A DNA stretch of 34,154 nucleotides from Spirochaetota bacterium (GTDB taxonomy: Bacteria; Spirochaetota; UBA4802; UB4802), in NCBI GenBank assembly GCA_029907515.1, contig JARYLT010000020.1, positions 1-34,154 of the forward strand. The letters run 5' to 3'. Positions 11,110 to 31,645 of this stretch are shown one piece after another. Positions within the stretch are counted from its first letter, which is position 1, and every line of letters begins with the position of its first letter. The notes below the pieces were generated by a model. The model did not search any database. It saw nothing but the letters and a program-made list of their open reading frames with translations, and was not told the origin of the DNA. The position numbers and the translations under genes are program-made.

Positions 11110-11152
11110 TTACTGTGTAAAAGCTGGATGATTACAACGGGAGGTTTTGCCA

Positions 11153-12319
11153 ATGAAAAATCGTTACCTTTCTTCCGTATGGATGAAGCTGGTTGCCACA
11201 CGAGAAGGAAAAAATTTCCTGCATCAATCCATTAAAGAATTTTTTACCCAGTGGGCAAACGATAGCGTATTAAAAAAAGTCACTGCAATGGTAGTATTGT
11301 TCTGTATCAAGCCCTTTGTTAGAGCAACACCAACCGATAAAACCATACAGGAAATCCTTGATGATGAAACCTGGTGGCAGGAACTAAGTGAACGTTTGCT
11401 ACACACAATTGCTGAGCATGATATGGCTATGGTAAAGCACTATGCTGATGCTGTAAGTACCCATGCACCTGATGTTACACGCAAGGTAGCTGGTGATATA
11501 TGGATGTACCCTGCCAAAGTTTTAACGCTTTTTGCCTGTATTCCTTCTGTTGTAAATTGTACAATCCGATGCGCCAACGAAGCATTACAGCCAATGAACA
11601 ATCAGGCACCCGATCTATTAGCTGATGTTGTGAATTCACTTATAAAAGAAATTGATTCTGAATCATTAGGTTGTATGACCAATCAACTGTGTGAGCTTAT
11701 CCGCAAATTTGATACGGGCGATGAGCTTATAAAAGAATCTGCTTCAACACCATTTGAGCAATCTGTCAAAACCATTGCTAATACGGTGTTGGGAAAACTG
11801 GATGAGAAAACAAAGCAACAGTTTTTTTATAGTTTACTATCGCTTAAAAATAAAATTACTGGCGGATTATTAGAAAGCCTTAAAGAACGTCCTGATATAT
11901 TGAGCATACTGATTAATAGTATTATTCTAAGTAAACTGCATAACATTCAGACTGCACGCACAGCATTAAGCAATTACCGAATACAGGAAAACATGACTGA
12001 TTTCCCCGTTGAAGAGATTGCGCATTTTTGCAATGATCTGCTGCGTTTTGTTGTTTCAGTTCATTCTACCAATAAACCGTTGTTTGATTCAATGATAAAC
12101 CGCTTTGCGCATGCGCTGGATACCAGTGCCTTCCAGGATTTTATTACTCAGGCAGGTGGTGATTGTTTTACTGCGCTAAAACCTGTGCTTGGTTATGTTT
12201 TCCCATTTGTACTTACCTGCTGGACTGAGCTTATACAGGAAGAAGATGAAACCATGCAGCAGGCACGCAAAGCATTTGCACGTGCATTATTGAAAGATGT
12301 GGAGGCAGACAATGTTTGA
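11153..12319 (+). CDS. Unrecognised helical protein within the dehydratase operon
   Basis: About 388 residues, no family recognised. The ATG at 11153 follows GGGAGG by about 9 bases and is preferred to the in-frame TTG at 11147. The sequence looks almost wholly alpha-helical, with no signal peptide and no clear metal motif. One mildly hydrophobic segment (about 120-140, KVLTLFACIPSVVNCTI) and another near residues 345-360 (VLGYVFPFVLTCWTEL) could bind lipid or a partner. Its last 8 bases overlap the start of the HgdB-like gene, implying translational coupling and perhaps a stoichiometric partnership. It lies between the TetR gene and the dehydratase-like gene. It could be an accessory or substrate-handling protein. 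Confidence 0.75.
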   Translation: MKNRYLSSVWMKLVATREGKNFLHQSIKEFFTQWANDSVLKKVTAMVVLFCIKPFVRATPTDKTIQEILDDETWWQELSERLLHTIAEHDMAMVKHYADAVSTHAPDVTRKVAGDIWMYPAKVLTLFACIPSVVNCTIRCANEALQPMNNQAPDLLADVVNSLIKEIDSESLGCMTNQLCELIRKFDTGDELIKESASTPFEQSVKTIANTVLGKLDEKTKQQFFYSLLSLKNKITGGLLESLKERPDILSILINSIILSKLHNIQTARTALSNYRIQENMTDFPVEEIAHFCNDLLRFVVSVHSTNKPLFDSMINRFAHALDTSAFQDFITQAGGDCFTALKPVLGYVFPFVLTCWTELIQEEDETMQQARKAFARALLKDVEADNV

Positions 12320-13469
12320 AGAATTTTATACAGTAGCCCAATCAATCAATAATGAATATATTGTTAAGGCAAAAGAGCAGGGGGTACAATGCATTGGCTA
12401 TACCTGTTCATATTTTCCTGAGGAAATTTTACATTCACTGGGCATAATACCATATCGCGTAAAGGGACTTAATGTATCGTCGCTTTCGGTTGCTGATGCT
12501 GCGTTTGGTCCATTTATATGCAGCCACCCAAAGTGTTTGTTGCAGCACTTTGCTGATGGGGATTATTCATTTCTTGATGGCATTGTTGTTACGCCAGGCT
12601 GTGATTCCATGCGAAGGATTGATGAGTGTATTCGTAAAACTGCTGTCAATCTGAATTTGCCGGTGGTCCCACCATTTTTCTTCCACTATGCTGTTCCACA
12701 CAAAATTACTGAATACAGTGTAAAGTGGCTTGTTGATGAATTGCAGCGGTTTATTGACAGTGTTACAGAACATTTTTCATTGTCTTTCTCCTATGAAAAA
12801 TTGAAGGAGTCAATTGCTTTTTATAACCGTATGCGAAAGCGTCTGGAAGAACTTAATACCCTGCGCATGAACTATCCTGCACGCATTGCAGGTGCTGATG
12901 CTGTTGCAGTGTATGTTGCTGGGTTGTCTATGCCCCGTGACAGGTTTTATAGTATGGTAGAGTCGTTGTTATCACAATATACAGGCACCAACCTTGAAGG
13001 CCGCAGGCGGCTTATGCTTATTGGAAGTGCCAATGATGATATAGACTTTATTAAAGCCATTGAAGGCGAAACTGCAGTGGTGGTGGCTGACACATTATGT
13101 TATGGCCCCCGGCTTGATGTTGATTATGTGGATGAGAGTGATGAGCCATTGCATGCACTGGCACTGCGGTACCTTAACCACAGCCATTGCCCGCGCATGT
13201 ATGGTGGATATAAACAGCGGCTTGCAAAAGTAGTGGAAGCCATAGAAAGAGCAAAGGTGGAAGGTGTAGTGTTGCAGAATATCAGGTTTTGCGATCTGCA
13301 TGGCGCTGAAAATGGCTTGATAGAGCGTGACCTGGAGAAAATGGGAATACCCTGTTTGCGCCTTGAGCGAGAATATGGCCCAATGGCTGATTATGAGCGC
13401 ATGCGAATGCGCATAGATGCTTTTATAGAACGCTTAGAAGTAAGAAAATTTGCAAATATAAGTAGTTAG
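12312..13469 (+). CDS. 2-hydroxyacyl-CoA dehydratase/benzoyl-CoA reductase-like subunit (HgdB/BcrC family)
   Basis: 385 residues from the ATG at 12312, chosen because GGAGG (12301-12305) is 6 bases upstream. The family includes 2-hydroxyglutaryl-CoA dehydratase, benzoyl-CoA reductase subunits and double-cubane cluster proteins, all [4Fe-4S]-type proteins reduced by an ATP-driven activator. Family landmarks: GYTCSYFPEEILHSLGIIP (29-47, Cys32), ICSHPKC (Cys70, Cys75), TPGCDSMRR (Cys97), and late RFCDLHGAENGLIERDLE (Cys327) leading to the IPCLRLEREYG fold end. The conserved Cys set suggests a cluster is bound. It overlaps the upstream unknown gene by 8 bases. No partner subunit is adjacent; the next gene (13994) is the best candidate. 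The reaction is not predictable from sequence alone. Confidence 0.88.
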   Translation: MFEEFYTVAQSINNEYIVKAKEQGVQCIGYTCSYFPEEILHSLGIIPYRVKGLNVSSLSVADAAFGPFICSHPKCLLQHFADGDYSFLDGIVVTPGCDSMRRIDECIRKTAVNLNLPVVPPFFFHYAVPHKITEYSVKWLVDELQRFIDSVTEHFSLSFSYEKLKESIAFYNRMRKRLEELNTLRMNYPARIAGADAVAVYVAGLSMPRDRFYSMVESLLSQYTGTNLEGRRRLMLIGSANDDIDFIKAIEGETAVVVADTLCYGPRLDVDYVDESDEPLHALALRYLNHSHCPRMYGGYKQRLAKVVEAIERAKVEGVVLQNIRFCDLHGAENGLIERDLEKMGIPCLRLEREYGPMADYERMRMRIDAFIERLEVRKFANISS

Positions 13470-13522
13470 ATTGATTCATTGTATGGTGGGATTACGCTTA
13501 AAAGGATTGGTATTGGCAAGGT

Positions 13523-13548
13523 TTTCCTGTGCATGGATGCACAGGAAA
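13523..13548. repeat. Perfect 11-bp stem-loop
   Basis: TTTCCTGTGCA (13523-13533) and TGCACAGGAAA (13538-13548) pair perfectly around TGGA. There is no T-run after it, so it is not a normal intrinsic terminator, although it follows the HgdB-like stop by about 55 bases. Confidence 0.6.
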
Positions 13549-13654
13549 TTGGGATGCGGGCGAGGACCTGAATGGATGCTATCCCGCAGCCCGCAGTGGA
13601 AGGACTGATATTTTCATTGTGAGGCACGCCGCCGTTTGAGGCGCGCTTTGGGGG

Positions 13655-13696
13655 TTTGTAAGGGGGCATTTAAGCGTGTAAATGCCCCCTTACAAA
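13655..13696. repeat. Perfect 18-bp stem-loop
   Basis: TTTGTAAGGGGGCATTTA (13655-13672) and TAAATGCCCCCTTACAAA (13679-13696) pair perfectly around the loop AGCGTG. It is the strongest hairpin I found in the window. No T-tract follows on the plus strand. It could be the end of a small mobile repeat, an mRNA stabiliser or attenuator, or part of a structured RNA. Confidence 0.75.
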
Positions 13697-13993
13697 AACA
13701 ATAAATTTTGGTATAAGGAATGAAACTGTATTGAAGGCTTTGGCCAATTGAATCGATTAAAAATCTTAATGGTTTTATTTGGGTTACAGAAAACATGATG
13801 GTAAAAATCAAATGAGCAATTTTGTGAATATTTTAGTGAAAGATCTTATCTTAAGAATAACGAAATTCTTTGGTACTTATAACCGATGCATAACAATTTA
13901 CTACAAGCGATGTTGTGTCTTTATTCAGAGAAGTTAAGATTTTTTTAAATAACGTTAAGTACATAATCTTATTTTGTATAAGGAGAGAAGTGT

Positions 13994-15397
13994 ATGCGCA
14001 ATGCTTTAAAGCAATATAACTTTGACTGGATGTTATGGCGTACGTATGAAGCTGGTTCTCGTCTACTGGCAGGAACCAAGCAGGAATATGATATTGCATT
14101 ACGCTATATTCCATATTTCAGGGACCCTGTTAAAGAAGTTTTCAAAGCAAAGGCGGGGCAATTGTTTTTACAGATGACAGCAACATACCTGGATAATATT
14201 GTTCATGCGCATCAGCGTGGGAAAAAGACGTGCATGACCACGTTCTGCTTTTCACCGGCAATACTGTATGCACTGGATATTGTTCCTGTAACGCTGGAAT
14301 TGCTGACAGTAATGATGACATTTTTATATAAACGGGGTACCGGTGAGTTTTTAGATTACTGCAATGAAGCTGGCTTTACGGAAACATCGTGTTCTTCGCA
14401 GCGTGGATCAATGGGTGCACTGTTAGCTGACATAGGTACGCCAATAGACATGGTCGTCACTGATTCACCGGGTGTATGCGATACCAACGCCAATGCATTT
14501 TCTTTTTTTGCAGCATATAAAGATTTACCATTCTTTCAACTCAACATGCCACCATGGTTGGTGGAAGAGCGTGTAACCGAGTATCAAGTGCAGGATTATA
14601 AGGCACTGGTTGCGTTTCTTGAAGAGCAGAGTGGCAAAAAACTTGATATCGATAGATTGCGCCAGATACTTACCGAACTGCAAAAGCAGGATGAACTCAT
14701 AAACGAGCTTGAGCAATTCCTGTGTTACAGGCCTTTACCATTGCCTGTTACCACCTGCCTTTTTATCTATGCAGGTCGCTTTATGTTTGCTGGTATGCCC
14801 ATCTACACACGCTTGCTTGAATTGCTTGTCAATGAAGGAAGGGAAAACGTTAGGCTGCATCAACAGGGAATTTACACTTCACATGAAAAATCACGGGGAT
14901 TTTTTTGCTACATAGACCATTATACACATAGCTTACGGTTGTGGCAAATGCTACAGGAACTCAATATAGGCTACTCAGGAAATATTTTGAGCCATTTCTG
15001 GGCTGATAGCAATCCGCCGGTAATCCAGAACAACTGGAAAGAGGCTGCGTATTCCATTAAAACCAATACATTAGAAGATATGCTGACAAGTATTGCACAG
15101 ATAAATTCACGTATGCCAATGATAAAATCCATTCGTGGACCGTATGATTCGCCGTATATGTGGCTGCAGGATACACTGGCGCTGGCAAGCATGTATAAGG
15201 CTGACTTTATTGTCTATAATGGTACACCGGGATGCCGAAACACCTGGGGTATGGTAAAGTTACTGGCACAGGATACCGAAAAGGCAGGGTTCCCCACGCA
15301 CATCATGTATGCAGATGCATTTGATGACCGCGTGCAATCGTGGGATGCAACTCGTGACCGCTTTGAGGAGTTTTTGCGCGTACGGAGGCTCATATGA
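13994..15397 (+). CDS. Divergent 2-hydroxyacyl-CoA dehydratase-like protein (second subunit candidate)
   Basis: 467 residues from ATG 13994, with AAGGAG about 9 bases upstream. It has the D-component-like architecture of the 2-hydroxyacyl-CoA dehydratase superfamily but is longer and more divergent than the 12312 protein. Landmarks: TTFCFSPAILYALDIVPVT (82-100, Cys85, equivalent to the YxCxxxPEEIxxALGxxP motif), SCSSQRGSMGAL (Cys133), SPGVCDTN (Cys162), and a late GTPGCRNTWGMVKLL (Cys414). These Cys suggest cluster binding. Its stop overlaps the start of the first activator (ATGA), so production is coupled to it. It may form a heterodimer with the 12312 protein or act as a separate reductase. 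The reaction is unknown. Confidence 0.82.
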   Translation: MRNALKQYNFDWMLWRTYEAGSRLLAGTKQEYDIALRYIPYFRDPVKEVFKAKAGQLFLQMTATYLDNIVHAHQRGKKTCMTTFCFSPAILYALDIVPVTLELLTVMMTFLYKRGTGEFLDYCNEAGFTETSCSSQRGSMGALLADIGTPIDMVVTDSPGVCDTNANAFSFFAAYKDLPFFQLNMPPWLVEERVTEYQVQDYKALVAFLEEQSGKKLDIDRLRQILTELQKQDELINELEQFLCYRPLPLPVTTCLFIYAGRFMFAGMPIYTRLLELLVNEGRENVRLHQQGIYTSHEKSRGFFCYIDHYTHSLRLWQMLQELNIGYSGNILSHFWADSNPPVIQNNWKEAAYSIKTNTLEDMLTSIAQINSRMPMIKSIRGPYDSPYMWLQDTLALASMYKADFIVYNGTPGCRNTWGMVKLLAQDTEKAGFPTHIMYADAFDDRVQSWDATRDRFEEFLRVRRLI

Positions 15398-29467: not shown

Positions 29468-30058
29468 ATGAAAAATGCACAATCATTTCGTGAATTAAAA
29501 GAATCTGAAAAAGAAAATAGGAAAAAAATAATTATTGATGCTGCAGAACGCGTATTTGCAACAAAGCCTTTCAATCAGGTAACAATGCGTGATATAGCTA
29601 AAGAGGCAGGTATAACTGCAGGTGCCATTTATCGCTATTTCCCGGACCAGCAATCATTATTTGTGGAAGCTTTCCTGCGGGGTGCCGAAAAAATAATTAA
29701 TGATCTTGAACAGGTTATTTCCCGCAGCAAAAATCCATTAAAAGATACTATCGCCACATTTTTAAAATTTTTGATGAAGCATGATCAGTATTTCAGGATG
29801 ATGACCCATTTTATGCTGGATGCACATTTAAACCAGGATCTTGTTGAAAAGCTTAATGAAGCAGAACGAAGGCTTTTAGATCAATTTACAAAGTTGTTTG
29901 AACAAAGGCCGCATGCCAGGTTACTTGCTCACAGTTTATTTGCTGCAATGAATGGCGTTGTGATTACGTTTCATAATTATCCTGGCAGGAGCAAAAAAGA
30001 TATACACCAGCATATGAACAGGTTGGGCGATATGCTATACCAGTTATTTTCGCAATGA
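29468..30058 (+). CDS. TetR-family transcriptional regulator
   Basis: 196 residues. Helix-turn-helix VTMRDIAKEAGITAGAIYRYF at 38-58, preceded by the typical helix IIDAAERVFATKPFNQ. The C-terminal ligand domain shows no motif I recognise. No Shine-Dalgarno sequence is visible before the ATG, so translation may be weak or leaderless. It is convergent with the acyl-CoA dehydrogenase gene, and their ends overlap by 15 bases. Neighbourhood suggests it controls the acyl-CoA dehydrogenase, the D-aminoacylase operon, or both; TetR regulators of fatty-acid breakdown that bind acyl-CoA are well known, but this assignment is inference. Confidence 0.93.
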   Translation: MKNAQSFRELKESEKENRKKIIIDAAERVFATKPFNQVTMRDIAKEAGITAGAIYRYFPDQQSLFVEAFLRGAEKIINDLEQVISRSKNPLKDTIATFLKFLMKHDQYFRMMTHFMLDAHLNQDLVEKLNEAERRLLDQFTKLFEQRPHARLLAHSLFAAMNGVVITFHNYPGRSKKDIHQHMNRLGDMLYQLFSQ

Positions 30059-31645
30059 TATAGCCATATGTGCATCTTCAACTTCGTGAAGAGCACAGTT
30101 TTGAAATTCATGCAAAAGATTATGACATGCATGTTCCCACATAATACAAAGATGATCGTTTTCCTGTCCAGGATAAATAAAATTACTCTGCAAACATTCC
30201 GTAAATGATGCAGCAATCTCATTAATTGATTTACTGTTTGCATTGTAAATAAGGTCGTGAATGAAATCATGCACCGGGTACCATGACGAAGCACGCTGAA
30301 TGTCGCGATATATTTGTGTTAAAAGCACATTGCGAGGACCTTCCCATAATTCATTGATCATCATGTCACGGAAAAGCCGTGGCAGGCTTGAAAAATCTTC
30401 CATAACGCCATGCCCACCAAATACTGCGATTGCTTTTCGTAAAATATCAGTTGCATCCCATGAAGCAACTATCTTCTGCAGCATGATAAGGATGCGCACC
30501 CGGAAACGCTTTCTTTGAATTTCTACATCCTCATCGGTTACAAGGCCGCCTTTTAATCCACCGGGCAGTGACTGAAACATTTCATAGATTTTAAATGCAC
30601 CAGCAAGTGTTCGTTGTGCATAGTGATTAATTTCATCAAGCTGTCGTTTGAGTAGCGGAAATTGGTTGATGGGGAATCCAAATGCATTTCGGAACTGTGC
30701 ATACTGTGTTGCTTCGCGTGAAGCACGAATCATTGCTGCTGCTGCCGATAACCCTACGGTCAGCCGCGAGTGTGTTAAAACTATGCCTACGACATTGGCA
30801 ATGCCTCGTTCTATTGGTCCGGCTTTATAGGCGATAGCTCCATTGAATGTAATCTCTGCTGTGGGAAGTTCTGCTGTTCCCAACTTCCATTTAAGCCTGT
30901 CAATAGTATAACCATTACGTTTTTCGTTTGTTTTATCACTCCATGATGGCATGACAAAAAGGCCAACATGCTCTGACCCCTTAGGACGGGCAGTAATAAC
31001 AACATAATCTGCATGTGTTGCAGAACAGAAGAATTTTTTGCCGTATAAAAGCCAATGGTCACCATTATCTACTGCTTCAAGATCATTGGCTGCAACATCT
31101 GATCCTCCCTGAATTTCTGAGAGGTACTGCGCACCAATTGCAAACTCACCATCAATGCCTTCTTTGCAATGCTGTAAGATTTTTTCCAGTTTGGGATGAT
31201 CATGGTATTTTTCCAGAAGTGCAACCAGTCCTTCGGTACATACTAACGGACACGCAATACCTGCTTCGCCATTTTCATAGATAAGGATTAATTTTACCAG
31301 GCGTTCCCACGGTAACGTTTTTGCTGAAAATAATCCCTGGCCAAATACTTCCTTTTCCATTTCTTCAAGTTCTTTTGGGCGTACAATGCGATCTATCCTG
31401 TGATTATGCCCATCGTAATGTTGCATGAAAATTCTGTTGTGTGGTTGTGCTATTGTATCAGCTATATCCCGCCATCTATAAGAAGCCAATTTTGAAAGCT
31501 TACGGGCAGCCTGGTCAACTTTTTCAAAATCATCTTTTGCAAAATAGTAAGTTACCTTTTGTAAAAAGGGATCATCTGCATAATAATCCACGTTTTTACG
31601 CCATTCTAGATATTCATCAAAATTGTAACTAGTATTCAGTGCCAT
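30044..31645 (-). CDS. Acyl-CoA dehydrogenase family protein (large, AidB/ACAD-like)
   Basis: 533 residues, longer than ordinary acyl-CoA dehydrogenases (about 380). It would use FAD to make a trans-2-enoyl-CoA from an acyl-CoA. Visible: YLSEIQGGSDVAAN (174-187, FAD/substrate loop, like the TEPxxGSD region), KKFFCSATHADYVVITAR (203-220), RLTVGLSAAAAMIRASREATQYAQFRNAFG (294-323), FGGHGVMEDFSSLPRLFRD (409-427), and NELWEGPRNVLLTQIYRD, whose Glu435 is the likely catalytic base. An N-terminal helical extension and a C-terminal tail of about 85 residues resemble AidB-type members, so activity on CoA esters is likely but not certain. GGAGG lies 5-6 bases before the ATG. The stop overlaps the convergent TetR gene. 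Confidence 0.93.
   Translation of the reverse strand: MALNTSYNFDEYLEWRKNVDYYADDPFLQKVTYYFAKDDFEKVDQAARKLSKLASYRWRDIADTIAQPHNRIFMQHYDGHNHRIDRIVRPKELEEMEKEVFGQGLFSAKTLPWERLVKLILIYENGEAGIACPLVCTEGLVALLEKYHDHPKLEKILQHCKEGIDGEFAIGAQYLSEIQGGSDVAANDLEAVDNGDHWLLYGKKFFCSATHADYVVITARPKGSEHVGLFVMPSWSDKTNEKRNGYTIDRLKWKLGTAELPTAEITFNGAIAYKAGPIERGIANVVGIVLTHSRLTVGLSAAAAMIRASREATQYAQFRNAFGFPINQFPLLKRQLDEINHYAQRTLAGAFKIYEMFQSLPGGLKGGLVTDEDVEIQRKRFRVRILIMLQKIVASWDATDILRKAIAVFGGHGVMEDFSSLPRLFRDMMINELWEGPRNVLLTQIYRDIQRASSWYPVHDFIHDLIYNANSKSINEIAASFTECLQSNFIYPGQENDHLCIMWEHACHNLLHEFQNCALHEVEDAHMAISLRK

Follow-up and report, generated by a model that had tools for sequence, protein, structure and literature searches.

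Two neighbouring plus-strand genes in the window (here, the whole analysed stretch of 34,154 nucleotides from a Spirochaetota bacterium) raise the question of why a strongly folded block of hairpins should lie between them. The upstream gene (12297–13469) encodes a protein of the 2-hydroxyglutaryl-CoA dehydratase D-component family (PF06050), and the downstream gene (13994–15397) belongs to the same family. A 390-aa open reading frame (11147–12319), located directly upstream of the first PF06050 gene and overlapping it, has no Pfam match. For the block itself, the initial annotation considered three possibilities: a mobile non-autonomous repeat, a structured RNA, or a processing or attenuation element.

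The conserved composite repeat occupies positions 13516–13700 on the plus strand, its limits being set by the end of similarity to other copies, and comprises four hairpins named A to D. Hairpin A (13523–13548) has an 11-bp stem with the arms TTTCCTGTGCA (13523–13533) and TGCACAGGAAA (13538–13548) and the loop TGGA; together with its closing bases (13532–13539), the loop reads CATGGATG. Hairpin B (13555–13595) has an outer 7-bp stem formed by TGCGGGC (13555–13561) and GCCCGCA (13589–13595) and a conserved core GAGGACCTGAAYGGATGCTATTCCGCA. Hairpin D (13655–13696) is a perfect 18-bp stem (13655–13672 paired with 13679–13696) with the loop AGCGTG. These three pairings, noticed at the outset, are all exact at the positions given for them, and between B and D lies a fourth, shorter one, hairpin C (13622–13648), in which the short stem 13622–13630/13640–13648 bears the loop CCGTTTGA and is followed by the conserved run CTTTGGGGG. 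The predicted fold of 13480–13720 has an energy of −97.4 kcal/mol on the plus strand (z = −5.8) and −82.9 kcal/mol on the minus strand (z = −7.5), with 0 of 200 dinucleotide shuffles being as good in either case. The view that the block is compositionally unlike its surroundings holds on one side: the GC content is 52% in 13500–13699 and 27–28% just downstream, in an AT-rich stretch of 280 bp, whereas that of the upstream gene is only slightly lower (42–50%). The block has no Rfam match at gathering or permissive thresholds. A weak sub-threshold match to Rfam Scr5676, a Streptomyces sRNA, was observed for the C-D part of a copy from another genome of the phylum (G035, L180 3814–3903, minus strand; 19.2 bits, E 0.42), and, given this match, the C-module core CGGCGTTTGAGG is of possible interest in actinomycetes.

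A search of the genome and its relatives, as proposed in the initial annotation, shows that the block is not single-copy. The window's own genome is coded here G000 and the further genomes of the phylum G001 onward, with contigs denoted by C and loci by L. In BLAST of the block against G000, three further places were found, namely C149:55212 (86% identity over 181 bases), C182:50818 (85% identity) and C180:9900 (A-B only), and related copies occupy three to seven places besides the window. Further copies exist in all four congeneric species searched; there are almost none in G003, the nearest congener as judged by the flanking gene (89% amino-acid identity). The module order A, B, C, D is constant across aligned copies, though several copies consist of A-B without C-D, and in some A-B is followed by a different hairpin, TTTGGCACTTTCTTTTG...CAAAAGAAAGTGC, in place of C-D. 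A second dispersed hairpin, TTTGGCACTTTCTTTTG...CAAAAGAAAGTGCCAAA (L015, L019, L021, L053 5018–5072 and, on G003:C7, L168), was also seen after many A-B copies, where it replaces or trails C-D, and it occurs without A-B as well in G003.

The wider distribution was followed with covariance models for A-B (R1), C-D (R2) and the order-wide A-B (R3). R1 and R2 match in other families of the order, and in several cases (G035 C2 and G029 C29) both modules are adjacent in the same order; the composite of G035 is longer, with extra hairpins after D. Of the 393 genomes of the phylum, 14 score positive with R3 under strict filters, which may miss weak copies; 13 of these belong to the same order as G000, and the remaining one (G340) lies outside that order. 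The matches number 7 in G000 and 12 each in G001 and G035, 12 being the maximum for any genome. The A stem of R3 is offset by one column; copies on which the model was not trained are still recovered at 50–70 bits, and the R3 alignment is excluded from the pair counts given below. Both R3 matches of G340 lie on contigs of 3.8 and 6.6 kb (C14 and C52; L233 and L234) and are of the near-genus A-B-C-D type; they could represent mis-binned contigs or horizontal transfer. The exact motif is present in only one record among the GTDB r220 contigs, CALEUQ010000067.1 from a congener, and no match to the element was found in phage and plasmid records; a lone pattern match in a viral contig, which seems to fall within GC-rich sequence of coding type, was judged to be due to chance. 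In other families of the order, more hairpin modules are seen before C-D, e.g., GTCCGCCGNCAGGCGGAC and GAGTCC...GGCGAG...GAGTT (L101, L104, L107, L118, L122), which suggests a larger set of interchangeable modules.

The junction between the two PF06050 genes has a different arrangement in relatives. The two genes directly overlap in G003 and G002, where the downstream ATG lies inside the end of the upstream gene and the DNA corresponding to 13445–13982 (about 538 bp) is missing; in G004, the same junction holds about 150 unrelated bases. The extra stretch is bounded by a tentative 4-bp direct repeat TAAG (13441–13444 and 13979–13982), and no terminal inverted repeats of the insert were found. 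Within it, only the composite core recurs elsewhere, the right, AT-rich part (13700–13985) having no second copy in G000, and the gained stretch is much longer than the repeated core of about 185 bp. The same holds for the C149 site, where G003 is without about 440 bp that include the copy, while at the C180 site G003 has the neighbouring CAAAAGAAAGTGC hairpin and no A-B. Thus, about 538 bp were probably gained in G000 at a point where close relatives have the two genes joined; this gain is the simplest reading for the window, although at some sites there may instead have been a deletion in the relatives. At two more gene junctions, copies are present in different species, in one case with the orientation reversed (L185 versus L243; L217 versus L249/L250), which suggests preferred sites.

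With other copies, 14 positive genomes and empty sites in relatives, the mobile non-autonomous repeat is the best fit among the three initial guesses, and the repeat family is probably mobile. The block is, with good probability, one instance of a palindromic DNA repeat that is modular, dispersed and low in copy number, a non-autonomous mosaic of the REP/BIME/BOX type found essentially in one order, which arrived on the stretch of about 538 bp. This repeat-bearing stretch would have separated the two overlapping genes after the split from the nearest relative compared, and the locus exemplifies how overlapping genes can be parted by DNA that bears a repeat. Against this reading, the inserted stretch far exceeds the repeated core, terminal inverted repeats are missing and the direct repeat is of just 4 bp, the copy number is far below that of classical REPs, and most RAYT transposase loci have no convincing copy.

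The block might alternatively be an attenuator or mRNA-processing element whose dedicated function is to fix the relative amounts of the two dehydratase-like proteins, as its sense orientation between two co-directional operon genes and its very stable fold would allow. Such a function is very unlikely: the insertion is confined to this species among those compared, with G003, G002 and G004 having the operon without it, the remaining copies lie beside unrelated genes, some of them antisense, and the window copy has no T-run of the kind seen in intrinsic terminators after hairpin D on either strand. Among matches between co-directional neighbours, 20 have the same and 14 the opposite orientation, a count resting on simple ORF calls. 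Still less credible is an independent small-RNA gene present in several copies; a multi-stem fold with covariation would suit it, but there is no sigma-70-like promoter in 13300–14100 and no terminator tail, the sequence upstream of the copies is not conserved, and no Rfam family corresponds to it. The lack of a terminator tail and of a promoter, together with the mixed orientation, therefore makes a dedicated regulatory role in the operon unlikely. The lost overlap and the hairpins in the transcript may plausibly affect the downstream gene, and such effects on the operon would be a by-product of the insertion.

The block is neither single-copy nor devoid of compensatory changes, which the comparison of aligned copies, also suggested at the start, reveals in both A-B and C-D. 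In A-B, both sides change at 8 of 22 pairs across ten copies (12 cells versus 2.6 in shuffles, with 0 of 500 shuffles as high), and the covariation signal is lost when the pairing partner is slid; in hairpin A of the window, compensatory change affects 7 of the 11 pairs. In C-D, there are 10 cells with a both-sided change versus 3.7 in shuffles, and pair 10–24 of hairpin C switches between G-C and A-U. When the arms of hairpin A were compared for the 63 A-B matches of the order, arms of the same copy formed 6.1 of 8 Watson–Crick pairs, as against 2.5 of 8 for arms taken from different copies. Given the dependence among related copies, these pairing figures should not be read as probabilities, and it is the size of the difference that counts.

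The kinds of pairs in hairpin A bear on whether the pairing is required in DNA or in RNA. Watson–Crick pairs number 310 versus 134 expected from independent arms, while G-U pairs (5.8%) are depleted, 19 being seen versus 33 expected. A G-U pair on one strand corresponds to an A-C mismatch on the other, and the depletion thus favours a requirement acting on DNA or on both strands; the same G-U pattern would be expected from template-switch correction of imperfect palindromes. The proposal of a structured RNA is borne out as regards strong covariation, but G-U pairs are depleted, the orientation to genes is about random, and DNA palindromes fit better. The copies face either way relative to genes, lack both a promoter and a terminator tail, and tend not to contain G-U pairs, features that point to a DNA-level palindrome resembling REP, BIME or BOX rather than to a dedicated RNA switch. 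The hairpins would act mainly as DNA, in the form of a single-stranded hairpin or a cruciform, and this action may preserve exact complementarity between the arms, with the loop of A staying conserved.

The family, previously uncatalogued and order-wide, has its closest counterparts in BOX and BIME elements. In Streptococcus pneumoniae, BOX elements consist of boxA, boxB and boxC modules, are regarded as parasitic and are able to affect co-transcribed genes (PMC3049150). Like BOX, the new repeat is a strongly folded composite of distinct modules in a fixed order, variable in size and with some copies lacking modules; it differs in having no more than about a dozen model matches per genome and in being relatively GC-rich and order-wide, the two being compared by description. 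BIMEs and REPs are imperfect palindromes in mosaic groups, mostly extragenic, which are kept by complementary changes (PMC2817692). The new repeat shares palindromes kept in this way and, in G001, the location of some copies by RAYT genes. However, it has 7 model matches in G000 and at most 12 in any genome under the strict filters, in contrast to the more than 100 per genome expected of a REP/BIME, no RAYT gene was seen to be flanked by inverted repeats of it, and most RAYT loci are without it. REPs and mosaic palindromic repeats are usually species-specific, whereas the new repeat spans several families. GTAG- and CGTC-tagged repeats are also dispersed DNA palindromes, but single ones of 20–40 bp (PMC3733652), and the new repeat is a 185-bp composite of four hairpins. 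Unlike MITEs, which are AT-rich, the block has 52% GC in 13500–13699; a search for terminal inverted repeats found none, and the ends of the 538 bp show only the 4-bp direct repeat TAAG. Since the four-module plan is kept across several families, with stems diverging and loops fixed, it provides a natural alignment for the question of what recognizes the repeat, be it a transposase, CsrA or another protein.

CsrA deserves attention because of the loop of hairpin A. In most copies this loop, taken together with the closing pair, is CANGGANG or CAGGANG, and it contains GGA in 56 of the 63 A-B matches of the order. In many copies the apex of B, on stems that vary, has a second loop of the CAGGANG or CACGANG type, and GGA is present at 30 of 47 predicted B apices, with the stems varying in step, as counted by a rough automatic inner-hairpin search that missed about a quarter of the copies. 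An ANGGA core in a hairpin loop, the sequence feature of CsrA-binding RNA, is present. The A-loop consensus equals the RsmE/CsrA optimum A/U-CANGGANG-U/A (PMC5864733) and resembles the CsrA SELEX consensus RUACARGGAUGU (PMC7652899), and csrA is found in all 14 positive genomes. Transcribed A, and in many copies B, might thus display a CANGGANG-type loop and the copies might serve as CsrA sponges or local mRNA sites, a reading that we consider unlikely. Almost all negative genomes, and almost all genomes of the order, likewise have csrA; CANGGANG on its own is expected often by chance (about 10 times in the window); very stable stems have been described as possibly unfavourable for CsrA; the orientation to genes is about random; some B loops have CGA instead; and G-U pairs are depleted. 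Compared with the CsrA-sequestering RNAs of the CsrB/RsmY/RsmZ type, the repeat has GGA-loop hairpins in common, with an A loop matching the CsrA/RsmE consensus, but it has no promoter or terminator of its own, has stems of up to 11 bp and occurs in either orientation. The match is striking but rests on one inherited loop, and the chance that CsrA binds the predicted loop is small. About as small is the likelihood of a mobile repeat family with a near-ideal CsrA/RsmE-binding loop on freely changing stems, whose insertions would place CsrA sites or add to a dispersed sponge; if this were true, the repeat would spread the targets of a post-transcriptional regulator by transposition.

As to how the preferred non-autonomous repeat spreads, most genomes searched encode Y1/RAYT transposases. 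In G001, copies on C20, C51 and C58 precede a RAYT start by about 330–490 bp and share its direction, and the C67 copy reaches the same leader, so that the composite was probably amplified there as part of RAYT units. Several RAYT genes are present in G001, but the family search finds none, because the contigs end within these genes or immediately ahead of them. For many G001 copies, the contig ends no more than about 1.3 kb away (C20, C51, C58 and C67; L024, L249, L248 and L023). In G000, a degenerate A-B (L039) precedes a truncated RAYT and is oriented oppositely to it. A narrower version of the preferred explanation, in which the hairpins are substrates of RAYT (Y1) transposases as in REP/BIME systems, agrees with these locations and with the report that BIMEs keep their palindromes by complementary mutations (PMC2817692), but it is doubtful, though less so than CsrA binding. 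The genus RAYT loci inspected sit among a different repeat, GGGGTCAGAGC, none of 39 other fetched RAYT loci (some overlapping) has a convincing copy, and no inverted pair of the element was seen to flank a RAYT, the G001 copies being upstream only, as far as the contigs show. RAYT as a general partner is accordingly unsupported outside G001. The repeat would probably spread either through co-transposition with RAYT units or through the action in trans of a transposase. In the window, an exact GGGTCAGAGC, a motif found around RAYT genes in the genus, is located at 30970–30979 on the minus strand, within the acyl-CoA dehydrogenase gene (30044–31645).
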